IMG/VR virus record: IMGVR_UViG_3300028388_001285
Coordinates: 1 to 64,000 of that record
From: a virus
Length of the DNA: 64,000 nucleotides
Strand: one strand, 5' to 3'
Under the pieces are notes generated by a model. That model was not told where the DNA came from and did not search any database. It saw only the letters and a program-made list of their open reading frames with translations. This document shows, in pieces, positions 1,499-64,000 of the stretch. A program made the translations under genes and the position numbers. The number at the start of each line of letters is the position of its first letter. Positions within the stretch are counted from its first letter, which is position 1.

Positions 1499-1969
1499 AT
1501 GACAATAGAAGTGAGTAAAATTTGGGACATGTTCCCAGAGGATATCGAGTATCCGTCAGATGAAGTTCTGAGGAAGGGACTACAAAAGGGAATACTTTAC
1601 TCTTATGTTAGTGACTCATATATACAGGGGTTGATGAACTATCTAGGTAAGTGCATATATGCTGTACACATAGAGAGATACAACAAGGAGAAGCCTTCTA
1701 AAATAGAAGGTAATCCAGTACACTTCTCTACCAGAAGTTTGGATGACGATTCTTTGTACGTATTCCAAGATGGGGAAGAACAGTTCCTGGTGTATTATGA
1801 TTGGGACGTATCTGACTGTATGATTGGGCAATTTGTCGGAACTATACCTAAGAAGTTGGTAAAGACTTTAGTGCGGAATTGGCTGGACGAAAAACCTTTT
1901 AAAGGTTATGGTGGCAAAGGTAGGTACACGGAATTAGATGTAAGTAAAATAAAAGGATGATTATCATAA
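1499..1969 (+). CDS. Hypothetical protein
   Basis: A 156-residue soluble protein with many aromatic residues, starting at an ATG after the structured noncoding stretch. The frame meets TGA at 1958-1960 and, reading it as Trp, ends three codons later at TAA. The sequence looks like a globular alpha/beta protein (for example the segment VYYDWDVSDCMIGQFVG). No family recognised. It is the first gene of the window containing the recoded codon. Confidence 0.7.
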
Positions 1970-1981
1970 AAACAGTAAATT

Positions 1982-2998: not shown

Positions 2999-2999
2999 T

Positions 3000-3680: not shown

Positions 3681-3715
3681 GAACTTTGAGATAAATGTTG
3701 TATATTTGTAATAAC

Positions 3716-5439: not shown

Positions 5440-5814
5440 ATGAAAGAAGCGAGGATAGTAATAGCAGGTTCAAGAACATTTAAAAACTATGATCTCTTAA
5501 AGCAGGAAGCTTTTGATTTTATCATCTATAACTCAGATGTGAAACCAGAAGAGATAGAAATAGTTTCTGGATGTGCTAGGGGTGCCGATTCTCTCGGAGA
5601 GAAATTTGCTGAAGAGATGGGCTACACTGTTAAACAATTTCCTGCTGACTGAGAAGAACACGGTAAGAAGGCTGGATTTATTAGGAATCAGCAAATGGCC
5701 GATTATGCTACACATGTAATTGCCTTCTACCAACCCGGCTCTAAAGGAACAAAGGACATGATCCGCAGAGCGTTGAAACAAGATTTAATATTAAAAGTAA
5801 TAACTTGGAATTAA
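5440..5814 (+). CDS. SLOG-family (DUF2493/YspA-like) protein
   Basis: A 124-residue Rossmann-like protein. It opens with RIVIAGSRTFKNYD, continues to IEIVSGCARGADSLGEKFAEEMG and then FPADWEEHGKKAGFIRN followed by QMADYATHVIAFY. These are the hallmark blocks of the YspA/cpYpsA-related SLOG family, which is thought to bind or process nucleotide-derived ligands. The Trp of FPADW is a TGA codon (5650-5652) and this position is normally Trp in the family, which makes the gene one of the best proofs of recoding. Ends in TAA overlapping the next ATG. Confidence 0.88.
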
Positions 5815-7957: not shown

Positions 7958-7970
7958 AACGTACGATTAA
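7737..7970 (+). CDS. Small membrane protein, overlapping frame
   Basis: A 77-residue protein with one transmembrane helix (IILPSLTFLAGMWIAWLLC) followed by a basic, then charged helical tail (NQRVKKVHSKYDKWWY). It lies inside the 3' part of the preceding gene in a different frame for about 220 bases, and its TAA overlaps the next ATG. The helix with positive-inside residues looks genuine; topology N-out/C-in is inferred. Possible roles include lysis or envelope functions. Confidence 0.6.
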   Translation: MQLIETLQTWLPIILPSLTFLAGMWIAWLLCNQRVKKVHSKYDKWWYTALKEAEKAEVPKVELNMEKKSVVMHKTYD

Positions 7971-8470
7971 TGAATGTACTAACAACATTTGATTTAGATG
8001 TAGACTTCTTTGAGGCTAACGCGCAATTGAAGATTGCTTTTAATGATGTAATTAAAACCAAAGGTGAGGAAGCTTCACAGTTCATGTGGTCAATCGCACT
8101 GATGGTCCACCCAGATTCCAAGTACCATAACACTAGTACAAGCTTTAGACAAAAGTTAATTAGAGATGAGTACTTCGCTATAGACTGGGAAGATGAATTC
8201 ACTATTGAAACAATTGATAAATTTAAACATCTTTGCCTAACTAAACAACAGCAGTTTCTCATAGCTTGAGAAAACAAGTTGGAAGAGCGAGATCGTTTTA
8301 TCGAATCGGAACCATACTCAGAAGACAACTATGAAATGCTAGAAAAGCTCATGGGTAATTCTGATAAAATGTGGGAAAGGTACAAGAAATGTTTAAAAGA
8401 TGTTGAGGATGAAAAAGCACACATTAGTGGTGGAGCGATGGAATCACTCGGCGAACAAAATATTATATAA
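7970..8470 (+). CDS. Conserved crAss-like hypothetical protein
   Basis: A 166-residue acidic protein containing FMWSIALMVHPDSKY near residue 38 and, after the recoded TGA at 8267-8269, WENKLEERDRFIESEPYSED. The TGA falls at the W of a W-x-x-K-L-E-E-R block that is well formed only with Trp. Similar proteins sit upstream of the structural genes of Bacteroidota crAss-like phages. Ends in TAA two bases before the next ATG (8472). Function unknown. Confidence 0.75.
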
Positions 8471-10730: not shown

Positions 10731-10823
10731 GTGCGGTTAGACCGGGAAGGGCTCCGGGGCTGTCTTCAAAACAGTGTGGTCGGTCCAAACGACTTCAGAA
10801 GGGTTCGAATCCTTTGCCGCATG
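10731..10823 (+). tRNA. tRNA with UCA anticodon (UGA decoder), long variable arm
   Basis: The segment folds as a tRNA: acceptor 10731-10737 with 10816-10822 (two G-T wobbles), discriminator G 10823, anticodon stem 10759-10763 with 10771-10775, loop CTTCAAA with anticodon TCA (10766-10768), T arm AAGGG-TTCGAAT-CCTTT (10799-10815). The D stem is extended (10742-10746 with 10753-10757) and the loop is small, and the variable region (10776-10798) contains a GTCG/CGAC stem, so it is a class II tRNA with selenocysteine-tRNA features. It would read UGA. No CCA is encoded. Given in-frame UGA at conserved Trp positions, its charging identity is unclear. Confidence 0.85.
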
Positions 10824-10825
10824 CT

Positions 10826-11885: not shown

Positions 11886-11900
11886 TAACCAAAGAAGGGC

Positions 11901-16622: not shown

Positions 16623-18911
16623 GTGCTAATAAACTACGAACAATATTTAATCAAAGAAGTACCGGCGTTCCACCCACTCTCCGAGAAGTATGTGCATTTC
16701 TGGAAACATGAGAAGCGCAAGTGTATTGAAGGCTGCTGAGTATCTGGTAAGTGGATGCCCGGTAAGCTGTACTTCTATGTGAATTACGGTACTATTAAGT
16801 TAAACAAGGATGGAGCTAAAGTTAAGTCTTACGGGCGGCCTTGATTGCGTAACTTAGAATGAGAATTTTTCTATAATTGAGCTGAAGCTAGGGGCTTTTC
16901 CGGCTTCACAAAAGACACACAATATACCTGTTTGAGGGACGTCCTGGAACTCAGAGAAGAGGGTATATTAAACGCACCACACTACATAAAGGCGCAACAT
17001 CCAGAAGCCGTTAGAGAAGACGGTACACTGAAGCAGTATATACCAGCCCGCGAATACCTTCGCAAGATACACCCACACAACTTAGGATCACCTATATACA
17101 AGAACGAAGCTAAGAATCTGTTTATGATCGGAGCTCGTGGTTACGGTAAATCGTTCTGTGTAGGAGTAGGCATAGTAGCACATGAGTTCTTATTCGATGG
17201 TAAGACCAGCTACAACTTGAATGACCCTATCACTGCTGCGGAAATCGTAGTGGGGGCAGGAGATGCTAAGTACTCCAGTGAGACTTTGGGTAAAACTAAA
17301 GTAGCATTAGATAACTTACCTGGAGGTATGGAGATCAATGGAGTTTATTATCCATGCCCATTTTACAAGCAATACAAAGGTAGCTGGACCCCGGCTAGGC
17401 AAATCGAACACCTCTATAAGAAGAAGATTGGAGGAAGCTGGACATATGGAGGTACTGGTTCAAACATCAAGCACAGAACGTTCAAGGATAATCCTTTCGC
17501 CGCTAACGGCACACGTCCCGGTGTAATGATATTTGAGGAAGTAGGTATGTTCGAGAATTTGCGTGAATCCTATAACGCTAGTGTAGAATGTCAGAGATAC
17601 GGTTCTGTAAAGTTCGGTTCTATGATGTTCTTAGGTACTGGTGGTGATATGGAGGGAGGTGGTACTCTTGATGCACAGGAATTGTTCTACAATCCTGATA
17701 ACTTCGACTGTATAACCTTTCCGGATATCTGGGAGAACAGGGGTAAAATCGGCTATTTTGTACCTGCGTATAAAGGTTTGGATAAGTTCAAGCCCATGAA
17801 GAAGTATAGTGACGGCAAGTTCTGGACAATGTATCAGGATGGAGAGACCGACTATGATGCTGCTAAAACATTCCTCAACAAGCATAGAGATAAACTCAGA
17901 CAATCTAAGGGTTCTATGTCAGCTTTGGAGGGGGAGATTATTAACCGCCCACAGGTACCGTCTGAAGTATTCCTTCAGAAACACGGTAACATATTCCCAG
18001 TAACTGAGCTTAGAGATAGATTAGTGAAGTTGGAAGAAAGCGGTAGGTGGAAGATGTTAGAGAAGAACGTATCATTATACTTAGACCCGAAATCGAAAGA
18101 ATACAATGGTGTCAATTACAAGATTGATGTCAAGAATAGGTTAAACCCTATCAACAAATACCCTTGGAAAGAATCCGAAAGAGAGGGCTGCGTGACTATT
18201 TATGAGTTTCCAAAGCTTATAGATGACAGAGTTCCGGAAGGAGCCTATATAATTGGACATGACCCTTACGCAAATGATGACCCAAGTGGCGAATCGTTAG
18301 CAGCTGTTTATGTGCTTAAGACCAAGAAGCATTTCAGCAAGCTCGGACATGACGAAATAGTAGCTACTTATGTGGCACGTCCATATGCTGGACGACATGT
18401 CGTAAACGAAACTATACTCAAGCTATCTCTGATGTATGGTAATGCGAAGATTTACTTCGAGAACGTTCGAGGAAATGTGAAAGAGTACTTCGAAAAGATT
18501 AAGAAATTACACCTTTTAGCCAAACAGCCCACAACAGTACTGTCTAAGAAGGCTTCATATATGCATGGTTCTGCGGTAGTATATGGGTATCCCATGTCAA
18601 GTAGAGCGATGAAGATGGAGGCTATACAATATGTTAGGGACTGGTTATTGGAAGAAAGAGAGGTTGACGGCGATAGAATAGTATACAATCTAGATAGAAT
18701 CTGGGATAGAGCCTTGCTACAGGAACTCATAGCCTTTAATATGGACGGTAACTTTGACCGTGTTATGGCGCTAGCAGGCTGCATAGTTGGGTTGAATGAG
18801 ACCCATAACCAATACGAGAAAGAATTAGTCTCAGAATCTAAAGTAGACCAAGTAGTAAGCTTTCTAGTCGACAACTCATATATATTTAACAACACGACTA
18901 GACCATGATAG
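16623..18911 (+). CDS. terL: Terminase large subunit
   Basis: A 762-residue packaging ATPase/nuclease. N-terminal segment GCWVSGKWMPGKLYFYVNYG and GRPWLRNLEWEFFYNWAEAR (residues about 38-95) match crAss-like TerL; four of the Trp in it are TGA codons (16737, 16842, 16860, 16878). Walker A is GARGYGKS (residue about 170), Walker B VMIFEE (residue about 301-306), and the nuclease domain begins at GHDPYANDD (residue about 547). It is the motor that packages DNA into proheads through the portal. Starts at GTG 16623, because the conserved N-terminus begins before any ATG. The last codon before TAG is also TGA. Under the standard code the protein would start at about residue 104. Confidence 0.95.
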
Positions 18912-21295
18912 AAACATTATCATTTCCAAAACAAAGGCTGTCCTATAAGAAAAAGGTGAGGGATAACAATAAGTGGGCGAAGAATATGATTGACCACTTG
19001 TTAATGAATTATACTGTAGACACTGGCGACGGCACATTTAGCGGTTCCAATACACACAGGAAAAGGATGTTAACCAACTACAAGTTATTCAACAACCAAA
19101 TAGATCAAAAGGACTTTGAGCGCGAACTCAATCCTCTTGGAATTGAGGTAGGACAGTTTAAAGATAACATTGAGCCTTACAACAAGGCTTACAACAAAAT
19201 CCAAGTATTACTTGGTGAAGAATTAAAACGCCCATTGAACTTTAGAACTGTTCTAGTGAACAGTGACGGTATTAAATCCAAGCAGATGCATAAGGATATG
19301 ATGCTCAGGCAGTTCATAGAGGCGGATATACAGGCGACGATTCAACAGCTACAGACTGGGGAAGAGGTCGACCAAAGCCTATTTGAGGGAATAGTACCCC
19401 CTGAGGAGTTGCAGAAATACATGTCAACTACGTACTTAGAAGCCAGAGAGCATAAAGCCAACCAGATATTGAAGTATATGATCAAGTCACTCTCTGTAAA
19501 GGAGTTGATGAATGATGCATTTAAACATGCGTTGATATCAGGTATAGAATGTATGTGGGTAGGAGTGGAGAATGGTGAACCAACAGTTCAAGTACTGAAT
19601 CCACTAGGAGTATTTTGGCACAAATCCCCTGAAGTAAAGTATATACAGGATGGTTTGTATGCTGGGTATAGGACATTTATGACTGCTGGCGACATCTTAG
19701 ATAAGTTCGGACAGTACCTTGATGACAAAGACTTGAAGAAATTCGAGAATAGTGTACAAGGTATACACGGAATGCGGGACGACTTGGTAGGTAAACAGAT
19801 GAAATATCCCAATACTACTGTGTATGATACGTACATGAATACGTACTATAACGCTAATCATGACGAAGGATCGTATGGCAGAAGTAAAGGAGAGGACTGG
19901 TTAGTAGCTCACGTGGAATGGATGAGCCAGAAGCGAGTAGGTTTCGTTACCTATAAGGATGAAGACGGTCTTCCTAAGGATACTATAGTCGGAGAGGACT
20001 TTGTAGTACCACCACATGCTAAGAGAACAACCAAAAAAGGAGAGTTCGGCAAGAAAGAGACTGTGTGGGAGTTCGATGGCATCACCCTGAAGTGGGGTTG
20101 GATACCAGAACCTTGGACAGGCATACGTATAGGAGAGGATATATACTGTTGTATGGGCCCGAAGAAGTACGTGAAGCGAAGTATGGATAACCCATTTGAT
20201 GTGCAATTAGGTTATTACGGACTCACTTTAAACAATATGAATGCAGACAGTGTATCTCTGATGGATCGTATGAGACCCTTCCAGTACCTGTACTTCATCA
20301 TAATGCACAAACTAAAGAAACTTATTGCTAGGGATAGAGGCAAGTTATTCCATTTCGATACTAGTATGGTTGATCCAAAGATTGGATTAGAAAAAACTAT
20401 GTACTACCTAGAGGAGATGGATATAGACTTCTTTAACCCATTGCATAACGCAGAACAAGCTGGCTCGGCACAACGAGCTAAGGTAACTACCGCCACAGAC
20501 AGGTCTAATATGCAGCATATACTTAATTATATCAACCTGTTAGTAGCATTAGATGAGCAGATATCAGATGTAGCTGGAGTAACCAGGCAGCGTGAGGGGC
20601 AGATTCAACCCTCTGAAGCAGTCACTAACTCTCAGCAGACTATCATGCAATCATCTACTATCACTGAAGCAGCGTATTTCTTCCCGCATTTCAAAGTATG
20701 GGAACGTGTATTGAATGCATTAGTGAATGTAACACAGAGTTGCTGGAAGAATAAGTCAATATTAAAACAGTTTGTATTAGATGATCTATCTATACAGGCT
20801 CTGAAGCTGTCACCAGACGAGCTGAAGAACGCTGATTTTGGAGTATTCATCTCTAACTCTTCCAGAGACAACGAAGTATTTGAAAATTTACGTGGATTAG
20901 CCCAGCCGTTATTACAGAATGACAAAGCGAAGTTTACTGATATCATACGATTATTGAAATCGGAGTCTATCGGAGAACTGGAAAGTCAGATTGAACAGTC
21001 TGAGAAGAGTTCCATACAGCAGCAGATGCAGGAAATTCAAGCTCAGCAGGAGGCACAGAGAGAAGCTACACAAGCTCAAGTACAGTTACAACAGGCTGAA
21101 TGGGAGCACGAGAAAGACTTGCAAGCACAGAAAGATAATGCTGCAATGGAACGTGAGATCATCAAGGCTACTTCTTGAGGCGGAGACGTCAATGAAAACG
21201 AGGTTCCGGATGTATTGGAAATTGCTAAATTCCAGAACCAAAGCCGATGAAAGGGCAGCAGAAGCCATCTAATGGCGAAAAATAATCCGCTATAG
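18905..21295 (+). CDS. Portal protein
   Basis: A 796-residue protein in the portal slot directly after TerL (7-base overlap). It has a portal-like N-terminal helical region, a long central domain with WLVAHVEWMSQKRVGFV and WGWIPEPWTGIRIGEDIY, a clip/stem-like part, and a C-terminal Gln/Glu-rich coiled coil. TGA codons at 21176 and 21248 extend the C-terminus (TSWGGDVNENEVPDVLEI and QSRWKGSRS) by about 40 residues. The portal dodecamer is the DNA channel of the capsid. Stop TAG. Confidence 0.9.
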
Positions 21296-21363: not shown

Positions 21364-22548
21364 ATGAGTGAGAATGTACAACACAACGTTTCACTAGAAG
21401 ATCTTGTAGGCTTTCTGGATGGGGAACCAACCGAAACTACATACAGGTCTGCTAACTTAGGTGTTGACCCTACAGAGGGAGACCCCGCACCAGCGGCTGA
21501 TCCCACACCTGTGGAACCAAAGGAGGACAAAGATCCTATTGAGCCGGTAGAACCTAAACCGGCTGAACCAACTCCTGAGAAAGATCCTGAACCAGTTGAA
21601 CCCACCCCTACCGAACCCACTACCAAAGAACCTAAACCGGATGGTGATGCAGGCGATCCTGCCCCAACCGATGGCATTAACTACGAGGCATTGTTCTCGC
21701 TGCTAGATGACATGGGGGCTTTAAGTGTGGGAGAAGATTTCGAGTTTGACGGTACCCCTGAAGGTATACAGGAAGCTTTAAAAGCTACTGATACCAGTAA
21801 ACAGGAGGTAATCGCCAAGCAAATATGGGAAGGTATCCCCGAAGATTTCAGGGATGCTGTATTATATGGTGTAAATCAAGGTGGAAGTTTTGAGGATTAC
21901 GTTAAAGCCACAATCCCAAAGACTCTGGATCAACTAGATTTAGATACCAAGGTGGATCAGCGTAAAGCGATAACACTATGGTACAAGGAAACCACACAAC
22001 ATAGCGATGAAAAGATCGAACGACTTCTAGATAGATTGGAGGCTTCCGATGCATTAGCAGAGGCAGCCGCAGAATCAGTAGAAGAGTTAGAAGATATCTA
22101 CGCTAAGAGGAAAAAGGACGTAGCAGCTACTGCTGCAAAAGCCAGAGAAGCTCAGATCGAGGAACAGACGCGCTGGCAAAACGAAATAAAAGACAAGATT
22201 CAGTCTGCTGACTTCTTACGAGGTCGGCGAAAGAATAAGATCGCAGGGTTTATGTTCAACCCTGTAACTGTCGGTGATTCAACCCTCACCGGATGAGCGC
22301 GAACTCTTACCCAGATTGACAAAAATCCCGAACATACTTTACAATTAGCTAACTTGCTATTTGACTATGATCCTAAAAAAGGTGTCAACTACGATAGGAT
22401 TACAGAAGAATTGCATTCACAAGCAACTAAGAGCTTCAGAGAAAAACTGGACTCTGTAATTGATGCTAAGTCTAAGGTAACAGGAAAGGGTAGCGCAACG
22501 TCCCAACCAGAATGGAACTGGGACATATTTATTAAACAAAATGATTAA
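21364..22548 (+). CDS. Scaffold-like protein
   Basis: A 394-residue protein between portal and major capsid genes, the usual place for a capsid scaffold. The N-terminal half is Pro/Glu/Thr-rich and disordered (PTPTEPTTKEPKPDGDAGD), followed by a helical coiled-coil region (residues about 190-290) and, after the TGA at 22294-22296, a C-terminal part ending in WNWDIFIKQND. Acidic, low-complexity and helical composition fits internal scaffold proteins. Ends in TAA. Confidence 0.7.
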
Positions 22549-22579: not shown

Positions 22580-24052
22580 ATGGCAACGACTAGAAGTCAG
22601 TTTATTATTAAACATTACGAAGGTTTCGGTGGTAACTTTATTGATTCTCAATACTTAGGCGCTTCTTACGAGACTGGCAAACCTCACGTATTTGAAAACA
22701 CTCTTATGAAGATCTACTCTTCTAAGAATCGCTTCTTTACGGGTAAGTTGCTTCTTGGCATGACCGGAGCGAAATCATACGGTACTGAAGAAATCGACAC
22801 CGAAATTTATCGCTGGCGTCTGCAAGGAGCAGAGGAAAGGTATGCGCGTTCATTGGAACACATTGACGCTTCTAACACTACCCCTGGTCTTAACGGAACA
22901 ACTTTCAAGATCAAATTGGATCTTGATTACTATGCCAACCCAGATGTATTGATGCCAGAAGATAATGATTTCCCATTGGAGATCGTTGATGGCCCAGTAC
23001 AAGATGGCGAAGGTTATATCTACACTGTTAGACTCCAAGGAGATGACCCAACAACCTTCCTGCCTACCTACTTGTTAGATGAAGGAAGAGAGTTCAACAA
23101 GGTTTGGACAAGCGTACCCAGTGAATACAACGAACGGTTTGGTACCCAACAGTACCCTGCAAGCTTTATGCTTGAGAACCAAGTTGGAGCATTCGCTCAG
23201 AAATTCACTGTTACAGATAAAGCAATGAGAGACGACGGACGTCTCGGTATCAATTTCTTATACACTGATCCTCGTACTAACAAGGAAATGAGTGTAGAGA
23301 AATTCCTGCCTATGGCTGAAGCTAAGATGCACGACGAACTGTATATGGGCATGGAAGCTCAATTATGGTACGGACGTAAGCAGACTAAGCCAGGTCACAA
23401 GGATTACTGGATCAAGACTGGTTCAGGATTAAGAGAACAATTAGCCGATTCATGGATCGAGTACTACAACTCAGTACTTACCGTTAATCGTCTGAAAGAC
23501 TACCTGATGGATATCTTCTTCACACGGGAAGATGAGCCGAATAGAAAGGTAGTAGCTATGACTGGTACACTTGGATCTATCATGTTCCATGACATGTTAG
23601 CAGTTGAAGCTTCCTCTTTCCTGACTGTGGATACAAACTTTACACAACAGTTAAGTTCTAACCCACGTCACCTGTCTTTCGGTGCGCAATTTACGCACTA
23701 TCAAGGACCAGAAGGTATCGAGGTAACCTTGGTCAAGAACCCACTCTATGATTCACGGAAGTACTGCAAGCGTATGCACCCGCAGTATCCTGAATTCCCA
23801 ATTGATTCCATGCGGATGACATTTTTGGACTTCGGATCACAAGAGAAAGCTGGTAACATTATGATGCTTAAGGTCAAAGACACTTACCGTTACGGTTACG
23901 TAATGGGAACTGTTGGACCGAATGGCCCCGTTAAAGGTGGACAAGCTGGTGCTCTGATTGCAGGGTACGACATGTTTACTGAAGGCACCGCAGGTGTCTG
24001 CGTGAAAGATGTTACTCGTTGTGGTGAATTGATCTATGACGACCAATACTAG
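22580..24052 (+). CDS. Major capsid protein (crAss-like)
   Basis: A 490-residue protein in the capsid slot, with a compositionally even HK97-like profile. Recognisable blocks are FIIKHYEGFGGNFIDSQY at the start, ENQVGAFAQKFTVTDKAMRD in the middle, and GQAGALIAGYDMFTEGTAGV near the C-terminus, which resemble crAss-like capsid proteins. It forms the icosahedral shell. No TGA codon occurs, unlike most of its neighbours. It starts at ATG 22580 after a short AT-rich leader and ends in TAG. Confidence 0.85.
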   Translation: MATTRSQFIIKHYEGFGGNFIDSQYLGASYETGKPHVFENTLMKIYSSKNRFFTGKLLLGMTGAKSYGTEEIDTEIYRWRLQGAEERYARSLEHIDASNTTPGLNGTTFKIKLDLDYYANPDVLMPEDNDFPLEIVDGPVQDGEGYIYTVRLQGDDPTTFLPTYLLDEGREFNKVWTSVPSEYNERFGTQQYPASFMLENQVGAFAQKFTVTDKAMRDDGRLGINFLYTDPRTNKEMSVEKFLPMAEAKMHDELYMGMEAQLWYGRKQTKPGHKDYWIKTGSGLREQLADSWIEYYNSVLTVNRLKDYLMDIFFTREDEPNRKVVAMTGTLGSIMFHDMLAVEASSFLTVDTNFTQQLSSNPRHLSFGAQFTHYQGPEGIEVTLVKNPLYDSRKYCKRMHPQYPEFPIDSMRMTFLDFGSQEKAGNIMMLKVKDTYRYGYVMGTVGPNGPVKGGQAGALIAGYDMFTEGTAGVCVKDVTRCGELIYDDQY

Positions 24053-28228: not shown

Positions 28229-31200
28229 ATGGCCGGAATTAGAAAATACTTGTATATAACGGATATATCAGCTTGCGACTGAAAGTCGTGTAGTGCTGGA
28301 GCTCTGCGTATTAAACAGTTTACGTTTATAAACGATGAGACTGGAAGTAACGCACCTGCTGTAAGTGCGCCGAATACACTGCCTACATCTCCTGCTGATG
28401 AGGCTGTCCTAATTGAAACTTGGGATGACATTACCCGTTACTGGGAATACAATTGCGGTACTGGTACATGGTCACATGTATTAGATATTGCGCTGGGTGC
28501 TACTACAACGTTTGTGGCGCTGACAGATACCCCTAGCTCCTTTACTGGAGAAGGGGATAAGTACGTTAAGGTGAATACTGGGGCAACTGCCTTAGAATTC
28601 TCGAACATAACTGCATCTGAAGTTGTGTCAGTACCATATGGTGTATTAACTTCCACTAATGTGCAGGATGCTCTCAATGAGATACAGACAAACGTAGATA
28701 GTTTAAGCACTAACTTTACTTTCATAGATCTAGACGATACTCCTGCAACCTATAATGGTTCTGCGGCTGATATAGTCAGAACTAATGTAACTAATACCGG
28801 GTTGGAATTCCACACACTAACCAAGTCAGATCTTGGTTTGGGCAATGTAGAGAATACAGCATTGTCAACTTGGGCTGGAAGTACGAACATAACTACAGTA
28901 GGAACTATAGGAGCTGGTACATGGCAAGGTACAGCAATAGCTGATGCCTATGTATCTGGGGCTGCGTACTGGGATAGCAAGCAAGATGGATTAACCTTCG
29001 GCATTGCAGATACTAACACAGTAGTTATAAATGCTACAGATGTAGCTGCTTTAGACTATGCACAGTTCACTGTACAAGGTCTGAGAGGTAGGGATACATC
29101 TGAAGTCAAACAAGATCTCAGCCTAGAGAATGTAGCTAACGTAGATATAACTACGGTAACTGACGTATCTAGTTATGGCTGGGTACTAGATGAAGACGCA
29201 ATGTCTTCAGACGACGACACAAAAGTTCCAACACAACAATCAGTTAAGGCGTATGTGGACGCAGCTGTAGTTGGAATATATACACACAAGGGAAGCTACG
29301 ATGCTGCAACTAACACACCTGACTTAGATACTAGCCCAAGCGGAATCTCTAAAGGCGATGCTTATACAGTATCTGTTGCAGGTACATTTTTCACAGAAGC
29401 TGTAGAAATAGGTGATGTATTAATAGCAGATCAAGACTCCCCCACACTTCTTAGTCACTGGACTAGGATAAACAAGAACATTGACGTAGCCACTACAACC
29501 TCAGCAGGTATTGTAGAGTTAGCTACTGATGGAGAAGTCGCTGCCAACGTAGCTGTACAGGGTAATGACTCACGATTAAGTGATGCTAGAACTCCAGTAG
29601 CGCATACACATAGCACGAGCGATATCACTAGTGGTACGTTCGACAATGCTAGAATTGCGGAAAGTAATGTAACGCAACACGTAGCGGCTATAGATCACGG
29701 CTCCCTAGCTGGAGTCAGTGACGATGACCATACTATGTACACTAGAGCTGATGGTACTAGGGACTTTAGTGCAACAGTGAGCTACGCCTCACACCCTACC
29801 TTCACCTCTGATACCGAACTGGTAGATAAGAAATATGTAGACGACGAGGTAATAGCTTCTGGAGGCTACAATGACGAAAGCGCGCAGGATGCCATAGGCA
29901 CTATACTGTTAGATAGTTCCGAAATTGACTTTACGTATGATGACGGTACTCCAAGTATAACTGCAACATTAGTGAACAGTAGTATCGACGAAACCAAGTT
30001 AGATGTAAGTGTGAATGCTAGTTTAGATTTAGCCGACACTTCACTACAATCTGGTGACAATATTTCTGTACTAACTAATGATTCAGGGTACTTAACCGGT
30101 AACGAGAGTATTACTCTGACCGGAGACCTCAGCGGGACTGGCACCACCTCAATTAATGCGAGCCTTGCTGCTGACACAGTAGGTGTTAGTGAATTGAATA
30201 CCACTGGTACCCCAGACGGAACGAAGTTCCTTAGGGACGATATGACCTGGGTTACAGTAAGTACTTCCGAGAGTAATGACTTGGCAACTGACGGTGTGAC
30301 CGGAATAGCTGACGATCAACTAGTGGTAGGTACTGCGAGTGGTACAGCCGCTTATAAAACATTAACTTCAGGAATACTAACTTATGACACTACGACAAAT
30401 AATTTTACGTCTATTACTGATAGCAGTTCTAATTGGGACGCTGCCTATACTCATGTTAGTAATAATGGTACTGACCATGCTTACATTGACCAAGACGTCA
30501 CTAGTACTGGTACTCCTACTTTTGCTTCTGTTGACGTAGGAAACACGGGACTCACAGTAGGTACTTCTGTACCATTCTCTGATTCAAGTGGAACGTTGAC
30601 GTTACAGAATGTGGATGCAATCGACGCAACCACCGAGAGTACATTAGAAGCGGCCCTAGATCATAATAGTCTGCAAGGTTTAACTACAGGAGATCCACAC
30701 ACGCAGTATTCATTAGTAGATGGTTCAAGAGATTATACTGCTAAGGTAGCTTATTCCGCACACCCCACATTCACAGCTGACACTGAAATAGTGGACAAGA
30801 AGTATGTGGACGACGCTATAACAGCCGGTGGAGGATACACCGATGAAGATGCACAAGATGCAGTTGCTACTGCACTTACTGATACTAGTGAGATAGCTTG
30901 GACATATGCCGACATAGCTGGTGAGATCACAGCCGACATTGTAGCTGGCAGTATAGATGAGACTAAACTCGACACTAGTGTGAACGCTAGTTTAGATTTA
31001 GCGGACTCAGCCCTACAGTCGGGAGATAGTGTATCTGATCTAACCAATGATGCTGGGTATTTACTATCTACGGACATAGACACATTAGCGGAATTGAACG
31101 CTATTGTAGGTGACGCTACACTAATTGACACTACTGATAGTAGGTTGTCAGATGCTAGAACACCTACGGCACACAACCACACAGCGTCAGAGATTACTGA

Positions 31201-34200: not shown

Positions 34201-36181
34201 AGGAGATTACACTCTGACTACTGACTTGGCATCCACAGCTAACGCTAAAGGGGCTAGTCTAATAGGAATAGAAGATAGTGGGACATTGTTTGCTGCCACT
34301 AATGTAGAAGCAGCTTTAGCCGAGCTTGCTGGAGCAAGTTATGTAGACGCTACTAATGGTGCGGCCAATCGCATAGCTGTATTCACTGATGTGGATACAG
34401 TAAATGGTGATGCTGACTTTACCTGGAATGGTACTACGCTAGTAGTTAACGGACAGAGTACGATACAGCAATATAACAATGGAGCTAATAGTGTGTTTAC
34501 ATATAAAGCTGGAGGACAAGATCTCAACAGCTTTAGAATGGTTACTGATTTAGATAGTTCGGCTAATCTTGAATCCGTCAAATTTACCACATATACGACC
34601 TCTGCGGCTGCTGATGCAGGACAGTTTATTTTTGAGGTGGATGAAACACAGAAGCTTGTTATTGACAGTGGAGGAATAGAAGTTACAGGAACTATTACTG
34701 GAGATTTAACCGGTAACGTAACTGGGAATGTCTCAGGAACAGCTGCTACTGTAACAGCGGCAGCCCAACCTAACATTACAACACTTGGGACATTGACCTC
34801 ATTGACGGTAGACACTATAAACATAGACAGTAATAACATAACTGGCTTAAGTGGAAATCTCAACATTACTCCAGCAGCGGGAGGAAGCATCACTTTAGAT
34901 AATACAATAGACATTGATGCCGGTGTAGTTACCGGAGCCACGTCAATTACTTCTACCAGTTTTGTTGGAGACTTGACTGGAAATGCTGATACCGTAACAA
35001 CTAATGCGAATCTTACTGGCGAAGTTACCTCTACAGGTAACGCAGCAGTAATAGATTCTACTGCTATATCTAATAAGACTCTAGTGACTGCCGCTACTGG
35101 CGACATGTTTTTAATTACCGATGCATCTGATTCTGGAAACTTAAAGCGAGTTAATGCCATTGATTTTCTAGGTACAGGTACTGTTACCGCTACTGACGGA
35201 GCAGATAATCGGATTGCAGTGTTCACTAACTCTTCAAATATTGAAGGTGACGCAGGACTTACTTGGGATGGAGTAGGTAATAAGTTCATTGTTGAAGGTG
35301 ATATCCTTATAAATTCTGACGGAGGAAGTCCAAGTTTATCTCTCAAAGAAGACACAACTAATAATGTCGGTCTATATACCACATTCAATTCAGGCAATCT
35401 AGAGAGAGCTTATATCAACACTAAAAGTGATGGCGGAGCTGACTACGGTAGATTTGAAATCTATGTAAAAGACACTCTAACACTCACACTAGATGACGAT
35501 GGCGCAGATTTAGAAGGAAGTTTGTTCCTTAAAGAGCAGGCAGCCGCTGCCACTGATGTCACAGGTTACGGACAACTCTGAGCTAAGACTGATGGATCAT
35601 TATGGTTCACTGATGATGTGGGAACCTCTACAGATCTACTTGCTGCCGCATCTGGAATGGCAAGCTTTACTGTTACCGCTGACAGCGGGACAAACCAGAC
35701 AATAACTAACGCACAAACATTAGACATAGCTGGAGGTACTAATATCACAACTACTGTTGCGGATACCGACACTGTGACCATCAATTTAGATAGTCACAAT
35801 CATACTATGTCAGAACTTAGTGATCGCACTGAGTACATAATGATAAATGAATTCCTCGCAAGTACTACTATCGAGGATGGAGACGGTGAGGTAGCTTCAA
35901 TGATACCCGTCGACTTAAACAATTACTATATTATCTCTATGGAAGCTAAAGCTGTTTCAGCTACCGGCTCGGACGCTACTACTGTAACGGTCGAGAAGAA
36001 TGGTACGGCAATAACTGGGTTAACTGTGACACTTAATACAGGCAACTCTTGGTACGCTTCCGATACGCCTACTAGCTCGACGCAAGTGGCAACTGGAGAT
36101 ATACTTAGACTTTCAATTTCCTCTACCACTGGGACCGCCACAGGTTTAGTTGGAGTAATTAAACTGAGGAAAACATCTTAA
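28229..36181 (+). CDS. Giant tail fibre protein
   Basis: A 2,650-residue protein that spans nearly 8 kb when TGA is read as Trp at codons 18 (28280), 32405 and 35579. The N-terminal 90 residues form an attachment-like region (YWEYNCGTGTWSHVLDI); the rest is repeats of fibre modules: LSLENVANVDITTV, DSRLSDARTPVAHTHS, VDKKYVDDEV, GYGQIWVKNDSPNNLYFTGD. These occur in tail fibres of many phages. A later repeat reads GYGQLWAKTDGSLWFTDD with the W as TGA, where the earlier one has TGG. Without recoding it would be cut in four. Likely host-contact fibre. Ends in TAA. Confidence 0.9.
29693..31063 (+). repeat. Tandem-like duplicated fibre module
   Basis: Two copies of a module of about 134 residues lie inside the fibre gene: 29693-30094 and 30659-31063. 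Each opens with an HxSLxG...HTxY pattern, then runs through ELVDKKYVDDEV / EIVDKKYVDDAI, SIDETKLDVSVNASLDLAD / SIDETKLDTSVNASLDLAD, and ends at LTNDSGYL / LTNDAGYL. They are diverged copies and show module duplication within the fibre. Confidence 0.75.
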
Positions 36182-37914: not shown

Positions 37915-38433
37915 ATGAAATATCTACTGTCTTTACTACTGATGTTAACTATGATCATGAGCTTAAATGCTCAACGCAATGATTATAGACTATGATTTAC
38001 ACAACTAAGTGTACAAGCACCGATATGTATTGACGGAAGAACTGAAGCATACAAAGAGTTTGGGCACAGTCCTAACTTTGAGTGGGAGGCTGGATACGAA
38101 TGGCACTTGGATGCCGGATGAATCGCTCCAGTCACCCAACTCACGTATGCAGTTGACCGAGATATATTCAAGCATAAGTCTAGAAGTTACCTCCGATTAA
38201 AGCAGGGGTTTGACTTCTTACCTGATGAAGATAGTGATCTCATAGTATTCTTACCTATTCGGAATATCAGGTTAACTGGATGGAAGTTCTGGAAAGGAGA
38301 ATACAATTCCCCATTTCTTACCGAGATGCGCTGGAGGTACAACGACGATTGAAAATTTAGACTGGCTTGGGAATTCTATAAGGATACCTTTCTTGTAAGA
38401 GCCGGAGTCACAATAAACATATACAAATGGTAA
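37915..38433 (+). CDS. Secreted, possible outer-membrane beta-barrel protein
   Basis: A 172-residue protein with a signal peptide (KYLLSLLLMLTMIMSLNAQ) and a mature part rich in aromatic and alternating residues ending in RAGVTINIYKW, a terminal strand like that of outer-membrane barrels. Three TGA codons (37993, 38119, 38350) are read as Trp: RLWFTQ, DAGWIAP and NDDWKF. Without recoding there is no gene here. It could modify the host surface or act in superinfection exclusion. Ends in TAA, which overlaps the next start. Confidence 0.6.
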
Positions 38434-55190: not shown

Positions 55191-58100
55191 ATGCCAGAAA
55201 TAAAAGATGTCGTAAGGGCCATTCTGCACCAAAAGGCGCAGCAGGGTTTTCTTGCTGGAAATCCTTCTGTAAGCAGAGAGGGTTTTGTAAATCTAGATAA
55301 ATTTGGGAAATATGACAAGACGCTCACACCTGGAACATGGGAGAACGTCAGAAACTTGTCCCCAAGAATGGCTCAGGAGTACCACAGAGGTACAGAGCAG
55401 CCATGAAACCACAAATATGCAAGGGGGATTGCCAACTTTGTCACAGGTACTGCTTCTAAGGTTGGAGCCACTGTAGGTTTTGCAGCCGGAGCTCTCGGAG
55501 CGCTAGCAACCGGAGAGTTAAGTACGGTCTACGATAATGCTGTAGTGGACGCCTTTACGAAGGCTGAAGCGGCTATGGAGATACCTATTTACGTAAAAAG
55601 ACAGTATGCTGAAGGCAACCTTATACATAAGATGGGTACCACTGAGTTCTGAGCTAAGGACTTAGGAGAAGGTCTTGAATTCTTGGCCAGTATGTTTATA
55701 CCAACTTACGGTATAGGACTTGCAGGTAAGGGTTTACAGGCTGTAGCTAAATCTGCTAAAGTGGCTAAGGGATTGGCTCGCGGAGAGCGCGTGCTTACTA
55801 CTGTACTGAACAGTACAGTTGAGGCAGGGTTTGAAGCCAAACATGCTAACGATGAGATTAGAGACCAGCTAGCTAGGCAGAGGGGGTACATATCATATGA
55901 TTTATTACCACCTGATATACAACAGGAGATCTCGGTTTTAGCGGGACAAGCTGCTGCTAGAACTTTCTGGGGCAATATGATTGGTCTGATGTTACCCAAC
56001 TATCTGGAGTCTGGTTGGGCTAGGAGTATTATGGGGTTTGACAAAGCAGGTTCCAATGTACGACAAGCCATACGTAAGAAAGCACTATCCCCTGACGATA
56101 TAGTTAAGGCTAAGTCCAAGTGGAAAGCAGCTACTAAGGGTCTGGTGTCCGAGGGTCTTTGGGAGGAGAACTTTCAAGAAGCTGTAGGACAGTTTGAAGC
56201 TAGATTAGCGGAAGGTAAGATCGAAAGAGAAGACTACGCTAAAGAATTAGTACGTAACCTCAGCAACAATGCATGGGGTTTTGCTCGTGCAGTACCTAAC
56301 TTACCGTTCGCACCGTTTGGTGTAGACTTCGGTATAGCTGCTAAGGCTGGCACTGAGCAAGATGCTGGTGCCACTGCTATCGCACTCGGAGCTATCATAG
56401 GTTCTGGAATGAGTACTGTGTCGCAAGCGATGGACAACGCTAGACTGCGAGAATCAGCTGAGCGTGAGAACTCACTTTGAGGTGACCTAGTGAAGTTCAA
56501 GGAAACATTAGACAAGATACTGGTTGACGATCAGAAATCTATATATAAAACTTTCGGAACTGAGACCGACGAAGAAGGTAACGAGACTCCTATCTATGTT
56601 AATCCTAAGACTGGAGCTACCGAGATTGACCCAGATAAATTACGTAATCTAGCTCTGGCTAACACTGTAGACTTAAACTTCTTTGATGAAGCTGTGTTTG
56701 CAGATGTTAACAACGATGAGTTGTGGGCCACATTCAACGATAAGATGGCGGCAGCCTCATATGGGTGGTACTTAGGATCATCCGGGATATCTAAAGAAGA
56801 TGCACAAGACTTACTTGAAGGTAGAGAAGATGCCAATGAGATACTGTCACTCATGGACTCGTTTGAAGAAGCGGAGAGGGACTCCCAGACTTCCGACGAT
56901 ATTCGTGGTGAGCAGGTCGACAAGAAATTTAAACGGTTCTTGCATAGGATCAATTACTTCCTTAATGCTCGTGGCAAGATGCTGGACGAGATGTATAGTA
57001 AGAACCCTGAGGTTATCGGTCCTATGGTGGAAGATAATCAGGCAGCTTTACAGAAGGTAACTAACGCTAGCTCTAGGAAAGCTTTGAAGAGTGAGTTTGT
57101 AGAAGCTGTAGGTGGTATAGATACTCTCAATAGAGAGGTTAAAGAACTAGAGACTGAGTTTGAAGCTGTTAAGAAGACTGACCCAGCTAAGGCTGATGAG
57201 ATAGCTAGGAAGATAAGTACTAAGAACTATCTAATGTCAGAGAGAATGCACGTAGACGGCTACGATGCAAACTTACAAGGTATAGATGCGGAGAACAACA
57301 AGGCGCTTGTAGATGAGTACTTTAGGTCTAAGCATAACAACCCTACTACCTTAGGTATGAACCCATCAATGGCGGTAAGCTACCAGTCATTACGGGATCG
57401 TAAGTACTATAGGTTAGGTAAAGCTTACATGGCCGCTAAGGATATCAACGACATAGCTGATGAATTTTTAGAGGAAAGAGATATTGATGACTTGAGTGTA
57501 GGTATTGAAGCGCTCAGAGGATCTGCTAAATATTTTAATGGTGAGAACTCTGATGTAACTGCTGCTACCGAAAAGATAAATACAGCGTTAGATGAAGAAA
57601 TAGACAAGATAAACATAGGACTTCAGGAAGTAAACGAAGCCATGTATAATTTGGCCGGTGAAAACCTGGGTGCTGAAGAGACGAAGTTAGTAGCTACGCA
57701 TCTGAAGGATACACAGAGTCAGTTACAAACACAGATGGGTCGTATTAAGTTGTTACGCGAGGAGATGTCCTCAGCGCATGAAGCTATTAATGCTACTGAC
57801 GATGAGTACGCTGCATGGAATACTGAGGATGGTCTGAAGATGGAACACTTCCGTAACCTGACTAAGAAGATATGGGCATTAGATAGCTTAGCTCTGGAAT
57901 CATTCGATAACCTTGCTAAGACTATGCAGTTCATGCAACTGTTGTTAGGAATAGAAGCTGCCTTCGAGGATAGAACTGACATCAGCGATGACCTAAAGGC
58001 AGATGTAGCTGCTGAAATACTACAGCTTAAGGAGATACTTAAAGCTTACAGAGAAGCGGCTGAAAAGAATATGCAATCCAGAGCCTCGAAACAGGTGAGA

Positions 58101-61100
58101 GCTTTGCGGGAGTTAGGACAAGTAATGAATGAGGCTACTCTGAAACTTGAAGCTCCAAGACAATTATTGCTAGATGTATTTGGTAATGATGCTATCAGGG
58201 AGTTCGAGAAGCAATTTGGAGACGAACCTTCTTTCGAACAGTTCGAGGTATTGATGTCCCTGTTCTCAGAGAGAGCTAGTGATGGGCAAAAGCAGAAGAT
58301 GCGTGAAGCATTGCTGCGCACAGGACAGTCGACGGTTTCAGCATTGTCTACTCTCAGTAAGGGATTAGCTGATCCCATGAATCCTACGGATAGGGGGAGT
58401 AAGATACTAACAAATTACCTTGCGAATCCCATTAAATATGCGTCCGCAATTGTGATGCCACTACTTGGAGGAGGACTGTTCACACCAGAGAATACTATAT
58501 TCTGGGAGTATAGGGAGAACAAAGACATAGCAGAATTTAAACACCAACTTGAAAGTATATCTTACGCAGGTTTATCAGTAGACAAAGCTAGTAAGCTGAA
58601 AGCATTCTTCGATGCACATACATTAATGCGTGGATTACAGTTGGCTGGGGAGTTTCTCAGCGCTGAGAAAGCTAACACTGCTAGGATACTTGAGGAAGAG
58701 GTGAAACTGCATAAGGTATTGTCTAAGGACAAGGCTCCTGAAGACGTTATAGCACCTACTCCACAGCAGTATGTAGCTTACCAAGAGGCCATACGATTCT
58801 TATTCAAACCATTAGCGTCCAAGTGGGCGAGTAATACATTCTATCTTGAAGGTTTCCCTGGGTCTGGCAAGACTAAGGTAGCTGCTAGAAGGATAGTTGA
58901 CTTGTGGAAAAGTTTGGAACATATCACAGACAGTCAGATTTATACGGCTGGTAACACTGTGGCGTCATCAAAGATTATCCACGAGGCTGTTAAGGGTACC
59001 GAAGGAGGTGCCACTACTATTGAGGATCTGTTAGCTGCCGACTTAACTAACACCAAGTTAGTCATAATTGATGAGGCTCCAGCTTTAGAGAGAAGTGTAG
59101 CGTTAGCTTTAACGAAGAAGTTAAATGCTGCTAAGGTGAAGACTATAATCCTGGGCGACCCTGCACAGGTTACAGTAGATGCACACCCGTTTTTATTAAA
59201 CGAAAAGTACATCAGAATAACTATGTCAGATCCACTGACTGCCAGTTATCGTACTAACATACCAGCCATCTATGATTTCTTCATCAACTTTAAAAACACT
59301 TCAGCGGTACACAGACAGTTAGCTGCTACTAGTAACATGTCGCTAGGGGATGTGATTAAACCGCACTCAAATGCTCTCGGTGTTGTAGGAGATACTGAGA
59401 GAAGTACGATGCTTAGGGCAATTGCTAGACCTAGCAGCAGATCGAAGTTACTTATAGTAGCCAATAAAGATCAGAAGCAGCGATACCTCAATGAGTACTT
59501 CAAAGATCCTGAGTACAATATATCTGATGTAGAAGTATTAACTTACGATCAGGCTAATGGTATACAGGCTGATGAGGTGTACATAGATATGCCCACAACT
59601 GCATTGGACATCAAAGGCAATAACTTCAAACCTATTGGATACAACAAGGCTATGTATACTGCTGCAAGTAGGCCGGTTAAGTTCTTGTTCGTGTTAGGCT
59701 CATTAGTACAGACACAGGTAGACAGTATGTTAGACTCTACCGTGCAAACTGCTGCTAGTGAACTGCTTCAAAATGTGGAGCAGTATGAGGGTATATTAAC
59801 TGCTAAGGGTAATGCACATGCAGCCCTAACAAATGAGGCTGTAGATGGTACGTTGTTCGATGACATTGATGAAGTGTTTGATGCAGCGAAGACTACCGAC
59901 AAGGAAACTACAGACGATGATATAGAGATTGCTAGACAAGAGCGAGGTAGCCCGGATCAGGAACTGCCTGAGGAACCAGAAGATGTTGGTGCTATAGAGA
60001 AAGAAGATCTAACTGAAGAACCAGTTGAACCTACTAAGTTGCCTAGAGTGACTTCAGAGGTAATCGAATATGACTTCAAGTTCCCACAGAACTCTAACAT
60101 TAAAGTTGACAATTTAGTAGCCACAGGCTCACAGTTTAAAATAGTAGCTGCTGTTTCCAGATCACCTAAGAAATTTCCGGTAGCACACTACGTAGTGGCT
60201 CCAACTATAGGTGACCCTAATAGATATGTGGTAGTAGCTATGTTAGGTAACGATGATTACCAATCCGGTGAGATGGGAATGTGGCTGAAACGTGAGGAAA
60301 ATAAATTCAAGGCTGATCCGAATAGAGGGCCAGTTGAAAGTTCCACACGTATCAGAATGGATGAAGATGGATTTGATTGGGGGCCAGACCTCGACAGAGC
60401 TGTTATAGGAGAAGGTACGTTAAGTAATGTACAAAAGTTACAGTATGTATATGACCGTAGTGCTGAGACAAGCATGGAGTCTGACATACACAAGTACTTG
60501 GATACGTTCTTCCCAAATGATGACACTTATCGTACTGGTAAGAAATTAAACTGGGCAGCGTTGAACCCATACATTAAGTACAAGATATTTACATCTGACT
60601 TTGGACCTGATGCTGCATCTAAAGTGCCTAAGGGACAATTTGTGCCTAGACCTGGTGTACCATATGCGGTGCTTCAGTTACCGATGCCTAACAGCGAGAA
60701 GAAACATTCTCCACAATACATAAGACAGCAGCGCCGTAAGGTTAGGATGGATCATCCGTATATAAAGACTCTTCGTGAGTTGTACGATAACATCATCATA
60801 CTTGAGGCTGGACTAGGACTTGAGTACGGTACGGAGGAGTTCAATAAACTCATCAAGGCGAACGCAACTAGATTTGAGCTTGGACCCAAAGAGAATGGGT
60901 TCCCAGTGAAGTTGCAAGATAACCCTGCGATGCCTAAGGAACTTGAGGATCTAACTGCGGAGCAGATTAATGCTCTGGACAGCTTAGTCAAGTTACTATA
61001 TGGGGCTGAATATTCTAGAGTTGTTGTAGAGACTAAAGCTGAAGCAAACGCTTTCACAAAGTCTGGGGATGGTAGATTCTATATAGACAAGGAATATACT

Positions 61101-64000
61101 GGTAATGGTTATGCGTTCATGGAACGTGTGGCGGAAGATTCCTCTATCGCTCAACCTGAGCCATACAGACAATGGCAGATGAGGGGTGGTGTAGGCGAAG
61201 CTTCAACAGCATTCAACGCCATAGCTGTAGCTAATGGTAAGATTGAAGGACTTAATATTAAGGTTAAGAAGCGTAAGAAGACTAGTATAGGAACTGTTGA
61301 GTTCTACGTTGGTAAGTCATTACTAGCGTTCACAGAGAACACTCGTAGATTCATGGCTGCCATGCGTGGTAGGTACGAGGATACGCGGAAAGAGGCTAGT
61401 GACTTCCTAGGCGAAGCTTTACCTGAGAAGTTTCCCAGAGATTGGGAGACAGCTATGAAGGTATTAGCTAAAGTATATGATGATAGTAATGGTTTGTACG
61501 GTGTTGATCGTGCAGATATTATGAGGGCACAGAAGGAACTAATTGCTAAACCAGTCACTACAGACTTGTTGGCACAGATCGTCACGCCTACTAGTGAAAG
61601 ACACCCAAGCTTAGAATTACCTATCTATCGAAAAAGTTTCGGACACGACAAGACAAATACAGGGTTTAATGACCTTGGAAGTAACTTAAATAACAAAGAC
61701 AATAGAGCTAGGATCGCTGAACAGGTGCACGGTAACCTTTCTAGAGTGATACCTACAGTAGTTACGGGCAGAATAAAGAATACAGTTACCGTGACTGAGC
61801 AACAGGTACCAGTTAAAGCACCTAAGAAAGTCAAGACACAATCTCAATTCAATAAGCTAACTGTGGACCAACAGTACAGTAAGATAGTCGGACTGCATAA
61901 GCAAGGACGGGTAGATGATGAAGTGCTGCAATGGGCTGCCGAAGCTAAAGAAGATAATGATAAAACCTCGCTTGAAAAGATATGGGAGCTTGGTAACATG
62001 ACAGATACTATGCGGTCTATCAGTACAGATACTACACATGTATCTAAAGAAGAGGCAACCAAAATATTAGGTCGATTAGACTTAGAGCATAGGACATACG
62101 AACTATCTGAATTAGTGGATAAGTTGACGCAATTCATGTCACCATTTCATAGGAAGTTGATGTGGGCACTGACACACGCAATAGATAGTTTAAGTAAATC
62201 TGGTATCACTGTAGATTTAGCACACGTAGCTAAGGGAGACTACGCACATGCACTTGGACTTAGATTCCCTGACGGAAGGATTGGACTATATACTGGTAGG
62301 ATATTCCAGACAACTAAGAAATACACTGGGTTCAAGTTGGGCAGGGTACTGGCTCATGAGTTAATACATGCTATTACATCCGATAAATTATATCGGTTTG
62401 AGACTGCGGAAGAAGAGTTCACTGGACGCGAGCGCGAGATACTACAACAGTTATTCGATATATTCACGTACGTTAAATCCCTTAAAGGTGTACGTGGAGA
62501 TATGGATAATTTGCGAGAGTTTGTTGCGGAGGTATTTGCCAGCGAGAGGCTTGCAAGAGATCTATCTAGAATAGAATTACCACCCGAACTGAGGTACAAA
62601 ACTAACTCTAGGGGCATCCTAGATACTGTTAAGAACCTCATCACTAACTTGCTAAGAATAGTGATGAAACCATTCTTACGTACTAGGTCAGCAACGGAAG
62701 CTGTAATCAATTTAGCCGGAGAACTTATAGACATGCAGCATAGAGCTGGTGTATACGATGACCCTAAGAAGGGGCATCATGCACTGTCACTGGATGACCC
62801 AGACGGGTTCCAGTATATCAAGACTAACTTTGGTGGAGTCGAAGGTTATAGGATAGCCAAGAACTTTATCCTAGAGAGGTTGGCATACTATAAGATGACT
62901 GATGATGACTCCGGTAGAGAGAAGAGTGTTGGGTACTTTATACCAGTTGATGATGCTGGATTCGTAGCCTCTAAAGAGGAGATCTACTATCAGATACATT
63001 CTGATATCAATTCACATATAGCATTCAATAGAATGTTAGCTAAGAACTTGGTACGAGATATTGCTATGGATGAAGCTGCGATAGAGTCAGCCACCAACGT
63101 ACGTCAAGAGAGGCTAGCCAAGATTGCTAAGGAGATATCTGAAGCTAAGTTAAAAAGGGTGCAGGACGCAATACCTGCTTTCGAGACCCTGATGCGTAAC
63201 AATAGAGTGACACATCGTCCAGTCTACTTTGAAGTTATGAAGACTATCTTCCCTAACTGGTCGATAGGAAAAGAGACTCAGTTGGACAAGTACAGGTACG
63301 ACACTAATGAAAACTTAATACGTGAGATGATGTCTGTGGAGGGTGTAAACCTTAAGGAGCAGATCATCGACAACGAGTACCAGAATAATGTACATAAGTT
63401 AAGCGATTCAGTAAAGGACTTCTTGTCAATAGTACAGTACACTACTAGTGATAATAAGATTGTAACAGTTAATCCAAGCTACGCTTATGTACGGGCATTG
63501 CAACTATTCCGCAAGTTAGACTTCAATACTATTGTAGATTTACAAGACTTTGAAGATAGGAGAAAAGAAATAGAGAAGACTGAAATCATAAATGATGCTA
63601 CTACCTCTATACTGGATAAGTTAGCTGACTTATTACAAGATGCTACGTACACTTATAACATGCCTAAGTATGTCAATGTGATTATACATAGACCTATAGG
63701 GGCTTTAACAGACGAGTATTACCTAATACTGTCTAATACGGAGGAAGTAACTAACGTAGTACTTCTTGAAGAAGCTAAGGAGATAGCAAAGAATGACCCT
63801 GATTTCAGAATTGTAAAGAGCAGTTCTTATATACTCAGAGATTTATATGAGGAGGCAAACATGCCTATCACTCCTAAGCAGTTCAACAAACTATATGACA
63901 GAGCACTAGCTAGGAATACATTAGCTGAGCTACACACATTGTTCTCATCTCAGAAGGAGACCGAGTTAATGATTGCTTCTAAAGGTCTCGACAAGAATGG
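55191..64000 (+). CDS. Giant polyvalent protein with SF1 helicase and HExxH protease, incomplete
   Basis: An open frame of at least 2,936 codons that runs off the window. TGA codons at 55404, 55650 and 56478 are read as Trp. Early Gly/Ala-rich hydrophobic segments precede a long helical region. An SF1 helicase spans about residues 1200-1510: GFPGSGKT (1221), VIIDEAPAL (1291), ILGDPAQ (about 1320), SYRTNIPAIYDFF, LTYDQANGIQADEVY, and YTAASRPVKFLFV. An HExxH zincin follows: LAHELIHA (2388-2395) with a downstream REFVAEVFASERL (E about 2447). Such polyvalent proteins are often packaged and injected with DNA. Confidence 0.85.

Follow-up and report, generated by a model that had tools for sequence, protein, structure and literature searches.

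The DNA analysed here, hereafter the window, comprises bases 1-64000 of the 81,997-bp IMG/VR record IMGVR_UViG_3300028388_001285 and derives from a phage affiliated with the Crassvirales. Its terminase large subunit (TerL), portal and major capsid protein were assigned to PHROG families of those functions (Table 1) and are related to those of crAss-like phages. The best annotated TerL match, that of Cellulophaga phage phi14:2 (Steigviridae, Crassvirales), is 34% identical and thus marks a distant relative. The window also encodes a phage GroEL-like chaperonin (12762-14438) whose gene contains neither TGA nor TGG codons, and a phage-encoded tmRNA (11897-12222; 45.7 bits in Rfam, slightly below the cut-off), the predicted tag of which is unusual.

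Table 1 Features of the window that bear on the reading of UGA
Feature	Position	Strand	Remarks
SLOG-family protein	5440..5814	+	Pfam PF10686; in-frame TGA at 5650 (FPADW)
Conserved gene	7970..8470	+	In-frame TGA at 8267; Trp in 65/74 relatives
Dual-anticodon opal-suppressor tRNA	10731..10823	+	93 nt to G73; CCA end not encoded; ARAGORN and MFE fold
Acceptor stem, 5' strand GTGCGGT	10731..10737	+	Pairs with 10816-10822 GCCGCAT; 7 bp, G1-U72, G5-C68
First anticodon arm	10759..10775	+	5 bp and 7 nt, loop CUUCAAA; anticodon UCA at 10766-10768, complementary to UGA
Second anticodon arm, in variable region	10778..10794	+	5 bp and 7 nt, loop GUCCAAA; CCA (Trp anticodon) at 10785-10787
T arm	10799..10815	+	5 bp and 7-nt loop UUCGAAU
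Discriminator G73	10823	+	Trp/Ser-type identity in bacteria
Terminase large subunit (TerL)	16623..18911	+	phrog_6681, E 6e-105; five in-frame TGA: 16737, 16842, 16860, 16878, 18906
Portal protein	18905..21295	+	phrog_6547; two in-frame TGA close to C-terminus: 21176, 21248
Gene between portal and capsid protein	21364..22548	+	One in-frame TGA (22294), column not conserved
Major capsid protein	22580..24052	+	phrog_11589; no TGA; relatives 67-78% identical
2650-codon frame	28229..36181	+	Three in-frame TGA; single ORF only with TGA as sense
Gene with three in-frame TGA	37915..38433	+	TGA at 37993, 38119, 38350
6033-codon ORF, start	55191..64000 (continues to record position 73292)	+	In-frame TGA at codons 72, 154, 430 and 5904 only

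The first-pass annotation of this sequence had proposed that UGA is read as Trp throughout the phage and that TAA and TAG are its only stop codons. About 20 credible genes of the window indeed cross in-frame TGA codons and finish at TAA or TAG, and some six further genes of this kind lie in the remaining 18 kb of the record. When translation tables 11 and 4 were compared, many genes that break at TGA under the former were found to join in frame under the latter. The exclusive use of TAA and TAG as stops holds partly by construction, and no TGA end fixed by homologues was seen among the gene ends that could be tested. The recoded codon is sparse, with 40 in-frame TGA against 265 TGG codons in the window, and several large genes, such as those for the capsid protein and GroEL, lack it altogether.

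All genes of the window were aligned to 80 terminase and five capsid relatives with the residue at each TGA masked as X. Column 39 of TerL (16737) was TGG in 76 and TGA in two of 82 relatives, while columns 80 (16860) and 86 (16878) were each TGG in 82 of 83, the one remaining cell being TGA in another recoded phage. Residue 100 of the gene at 7970-8470 was TGG in 65 of 74 relatives, and the FPADW motif of the SLOG protein was present in two Cellulophaga phage homologues. Not every site named in the annotation is a Trp position, as the first W of GRPWLRNLEW (16842, TerL column 74) is Phe in 67 of 83 relatives. Pooled over the alignments, the cells opposite TGA comprised 306 W, 77 F and 12 Y, and the control cells opposite TGG 1070 W, 169 Y and 105 F, which excludes chance. 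The TGA codons near gene ends (1958; portal 21176, which 38 relatives reach, and 21248) fall in poorly conserved or untestable columns and prove nothing alone. Because the conserved columns of TerL, of the gene at 7970-8470 and of the SLOG protein are Trp in relatives, the reassignment is confirmed at the level of sequence comparison: UGA codes for Trp in this phage.

Recoding was found to be scattered among the relatives. L003 (65% identical in TerL and 78% in the capsid protein) places TGA in 14 of 38 Trp cells and L087 in 10 of 30, and L083 also uses TGA at Trp columns, whereas two phages of the same group, L085 (capsid protein 76%) and L084, do so in 0 of 37 and 0 of 16 Trp cells, respectively. 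This split between close relatives indicates that recoding is a property of individual phages.

ARAGORN reported a tRNA-SeC(TCA) at 10731-10824, and the tRNA-Sec model of Rfam (RF01852) scored this gene at 36.2 bits, below its cut-off of 47. The minimum free energy fold is a cloverleaf of five arms, namely acceptor, D arm, first anticodon arm, second arm and T arm. The orthologous tRNA of the recoded relative G002 (L088) folds in the same way, with two 5-bp/7-nt arms, the stems of which differ from those of the window tRNA. The second loop of the window tRNA reads U33, C34-C35-A36, like the anticodon loop of tRNA-Trp, and the acceptor/T branch has the canonical 7 + 5 bp. The molecule thus joins a stop-reading arm to a 5-bp/7-nt arm bearing the anticodon of the inserted amino acid, the combination by which we define a dual-anticodon suppressor tRNA. 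Measured against tRNA-Trp, it shares the discriminator G73, which passages in PMC12135181 and PMC7609411 give as an identity element of Trp/Ser type in bacteria. Its canonical anticodon arm, however, holds UCA, with CCA in the second arm, and 23 nt separate the first anticodon arm from the T arm in place of a short class I variable loop. Of the minor tRNA-Trp elements A1-U72 and G5-C68, it carries G5-C68 and has G1-U72 where the G002 orthologue and many other members of the family have A1-U72; this difference counts against its identity being read by tryptophanyl-tRNA synthetase (TrpRS). A BLAST search of annotated phages with the window tRNA returned no match.

With this tRNA(UCA), the phage carries its own source of a UGA-reading tRNA, as expected of a phage using code 4, and its anatomy and co-occurrence with recoding make it the probable decoder of UGA. 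No tRNA-Sec-like match was present in G004, the 106-kb record to which L085, a relative with the standard code, belongs. The dual-arm tRNA, divergent forms included, was likewise not found on the 35-kb fragment of the recoded relative L003, which counts against this tRNA as the decoder.

A selective pattern demanding TCCAAA in the variable arm retrieved 54 viral stretches. We also carried out an unbiased rescan that placed no demand on the variable arm, which yielded 30 distinct UCA tRNAs with a long variable arm (type II) and G73. UCCA occurred in the variable region of 29 of these, the tRNA of L231 being the sole one without a UCCA loop. In 26 of the 30 it formed part of a 7-nt hairpin loop on a stem of 3 bp or longer, against 0.1 expected from shuffled variable regions, and any other four-base core was seen in the same position once or not at all. 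The tRNA-Sec-like genes of the same scan had no UCCA arm. Type-I UCA tRNAs with G73, which lack a long variable arm, are common in phages. Comparison of 42 distinct arms, a set partly selected for TCCAAA, showed U33, C34, C35 and A36 to be invariant, in part through that selection. The stem geometry was not selected: five base pairs form and a sixth does not, and 93% of cells are paired in register as opposed to 28-46% when the strands are slid. Covariation over 39 arms was evident as a change of both pairing partners in 77 cells, compared with 24 in shuffled arms (0/500). The geometry of the second arm is that of an anticodon arm. A scan of genome contigs returned mostly tRNA-Sec genes with TCCAA in a loop, which we take to be chance pattern matches, together with three dual-arm tRNAs, one of them adjoining a phage terminase gene. 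The isolate genome of Bacteroides neonati MS4 (NZ_HG726020.1, L263), where an opal dual-arm tRNA adjoins a phage terminase gene, may offer a laboratory system. The corresponding scan for ochre (UUA) tRNAs gave five with long variable regions, none of them dual-arm.

The 3' half of one family member, from the second arm through the variable loop and T arm to the acceptor, is 80-89% identical to ordinary tRNA-Trp genes across 47-51 bases; its 5' half separately matches tRNA-Trp, and no record of an annotated phage matched the tRNA as a whole. Three records (L584, L575 and L544) encode an ordinary tRNA-Trp(CCA) near the dual-arm one, and in the record G051 both halves of the dual-arm tRNA align to the adjacent tRNA-Trp. 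Both halves are thus homologous to tRNA-Trp(CCA), whose own anticodon arm corresponds to the second arm; unlike the dual-arm molecule, tRNA-Trp(CCA) has a single anticodon arm and a class I variable loop and reads UGG only. The simplest origin would be a tandem duplication of the anticodon arm of a tRNA-Trp.

Amber (CUA) tRNAs scanned in the same way included 44 with a variable region of at least 18 nt. In 36 of these the variable region folds into a hairpin whose stem has 2 bp or more and whose loop, N-U-C/U-U-G, holds the Gln anticodon CUG or UUG, and at a stem of at least 3 bp this hairpin was seen in 24 amber tRNAs against 0.26 expected. The exceptions were L431, with a CCA arm; L328 and L405, with C instead of U33; L395, L399 and L414, which resemble derivatives of tRNA-Ser, tRNA-Leu or tRNA-Tyr; and L356 and L373, of no clear type. 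Contigs carrying an opal tRNA with a CCA arm gained 0.164 in coding density under code 4 versus 0.057 under code 15, and those carrying an amber tRNA with a CUG or UUG arm gained 0.207 under code 15 versus 0.089 under code 4; control terminase relatives gained 0.010 under code 4. Gains under code 6, in which two stops are recoded, were left aside as the controls gain too. At the TGA sites of the opal contigs the commonest residue was W (80 of 292 sites), followed by F and Y, and at the TAG sites of the amber contigs with a Gln arm it was Q (60 of 274 sites), the pooled per-site majorities being noisy in both cases.

One record allowed a prediction to be set in advance. The only amber tRNA found with a CCA second arm (L431) is carried by G051, the 146-kb record IMGVR_UViG_3300028805_000058 (L431, L451-L458); were the second arm to dictate the residue, UAG should be Trp and not Gln there. 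A first alignment at limited loci had TAG columns pointing to W or TGA. In the main test, an alignment to 80 terminase relatives, the TAG columns of G051 held 786 TGG and 112 TGA cells, and Gln was found at one of 41 TAG sites. Conserved sites were unambiguous (for example, 58 TGG and one TGA of 59 cells; 65 and two of 67; 57 and 18 of 75). The composition agrees: TGG falls to 4.65 per 1000 codons in TAG-rich genes versus 13.3, with Gln codons not depleted, whereas in the amber contigs with a Gln arm TGG is not reduced and CAG is halved. Judged by its alignment columns, UAG is a Trp codon in G051. The amino acid at the recoded codon thus follows the second anticodon and not the first, by correlation across the two classes and by this one confirmed prediction. 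An amber suppressor made from tRNA-Trp with CUA as its sole anticodon has been reported to receive Gln (PMC9976931), and yet UAG reads as Trp in G051; the CCA arm therefore appears to matter there.

Some phages among the relatives of G051 carry UCA + CCA tRNAs. Twelve relatives (L498, L496, L488, L501, L507, L492, L513, L509, L481, L491, L505 and L486; TerL 73-75%) place in-frame TAG at Glu columns, with E as the majority residue at 462 of 754 sites and 18,454 E versus 2,040 Q cells. By the same kind of alignment, UAG is Glu in these phages, and we know of no report of UAG as Glu in phages. A type-I CUA tRNA was found in four records of this group (G074, G078, G079 and G080).

Any suppressor derived from tRNA-Trp or tRNA-Gln meets a conflict, since its anticodon must change in order to read a stop codon and yet the Trp and Gln synthetases recognise the anticodon; a second arm would resolve it. 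The window tRNA resembles a tRNA-Trp that contains two tandem copies of its anticodon arm. The first copy occupies the canonical position after the D arm and would read UGA on the ribosome. The second occupies the canonical position ahead of the T arm; it retains the 5-bp stem and 7-nt loop, the uridine of the U-turn and the anticodon CCA, and would, together with G73, serve as the identity element for charging by the host TrpRS. In the amber version the CUA arm would read the stop codon, and the CUG or UUG (Gln) arm, or in one case the CCA (Trp) arm, would be read by the host synthetase. We searched 35 records, 33 of them carriers and several only fragments, for TrpRS/TyrRS-family and release-factor genes and found none, nor was a GlnRS-family gene found in 22 amber carriers; charging must therefore come from a host enzyme. 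With UGA shown by homology to be Trp in the window phage, we consider it likely that the phage brings its own decoder, a tRNA whose UCA arm reads UGA and whose CCA arm and G73 identify it to the host TrpRS. It also seems rather probable that such tRNAs form a class, present in many phages, in which codon reading and amino acid identity are divided between two anticodons, the pairs UCA + CCA, CUA + CUG, CUA + UUG and CUA + CCA setting both codon and residue.

How far the second arm is needed differs between the opal and amber cases. Bacterial TrpRS recognises C35 and A36 by a network of hydrogen bonds, G73 by Glu155 and C34 mainly by its size (PMC12135181); the lax check of C34 makes a second arm less necessary in opal suppressors. 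The presence of ordinary type-I UCA tRNAs in many phages likewise indicates that the second arm is not always required. The UCA arm might then suffice by itself, with the host TrpRS accepting U34 (the E. coli enzyme is described as having no need to tell U34 and C34 apart; PMC12135181) and the second arm persisting as a relic or structural spacer of the duplication. We regard this as unlikely: a relic would drift, and yet U33-C34-C35-A36 is fixed in 29 of 30 tRNAs of the unbiased set while its stem is compensatorily replaced; amber suppressors have the same kind of arm, there with Gln anticodons; and UAG as Trp in G051 would be hard to obtain from a CUA anticodon alone. In the amber tRNA with the CCA arm, where U35 replaces C35, the need for a second arm is clear. 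Passages in PMC7609411 suggest that G73 and a long variable arm also invite SerRS, and some serine misincorporation is possible.

As each arm is canonically positioned relative to one of the two tRNA halves, the arms might instead swap places in a five-way junction so that one molecule reads both UGA and UGG. We give this reading little credence, considering that an ordinary tRNA-Trp(CCA) lies beside the dual-arm tRNA in several carriers (the three records named above), that the CUG and UUG versions would read Gln codons already covered by the host, and that a UCA anticodon could read UGG by wobble. Bacteria with TGA as Trp exist, and the phage might simply follow a host that itself uses code 4. 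Such a host is very improbable given that the close relatives L084 and L085 keep the standard code, that UGA as Trp and UAG as Trp, Glu or Gln coexist within the terminase group of G051, and that an opal dual-arm tRNA adjoins a phage terminase gene on a Bacteroides neonati contig. Finally, tRNA-Sec is the nearest class by both ARAGORN and Rfam and shares the UCA anticodon, long variable arm and G73, but a genuine selenocysteine tRNA was rejected on the sub-threshold Rfam score, the 7 + 5 acceptor/T branch in place of the 8 + 5 (13-bp) one, the Trp columns at TGA and the lack of a UCCA loop in tRNA-Sec.

The dual-arm tRNA as decoder of UGA can be set against several known systems. Crassvirales phages with TGA as Trp are already published, and passages of Yutin et al. 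2021 (PMC7886860) and of the 2025 Lera phage paper (PMC12386605) describe, as in the window phage, TGA where TerL and further late genes have Trp, a phage UCA tRNA and standard-code relatives close by; unlike here, their suppressor-tRNA passages describe no second anticodon arm. The ordinary type-I suppressor tRNA-Trp(UCA) shares UCA, G73, a Trp-like acceptor and the 12-bp acceptor/T branch with the window tRNA, but lacks the long variable arm and the CCA hairpin. Class II tRNAs (Ser, Leu and Tyr) share the principle of a variable arm that serves the synthetase as an identity element; for Ser, passages of PMC7609411 hold the orientation of the arm to be weightier than its sequence, whereas the loop of the dual-arm tRNA repeats the cognate anticodon. 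Within the open-access literature searched, no earlier account of a suppressor tRNA bearing two anticodon arms was found, and excerpts of a review of non-canonical tRNAs (PMC7609411) make no mention of one. A decoder tRNA with two anticodon arms looks new, although its priority is uncertain.

ARAGORN labels the opal dual-arm tRNAs as tRNA-SeC and the CUA suppressors as tRNA-Pyl, so that dual-arm suppressors may lie behind some of the tRNA-Sec and tRNA-Pyl annotations of phage genomes. From the tRNA one could predict which residue a recoded stop codon specifies, and the two-arm layout would provide a design rule for engineered suppressor tRNAs. If the proposed role of the second arm is true, it explains how phages recode stop codons to Trp or Gln in unmodified hosts, and a phage could change its genetic code without altering any host enzyme.
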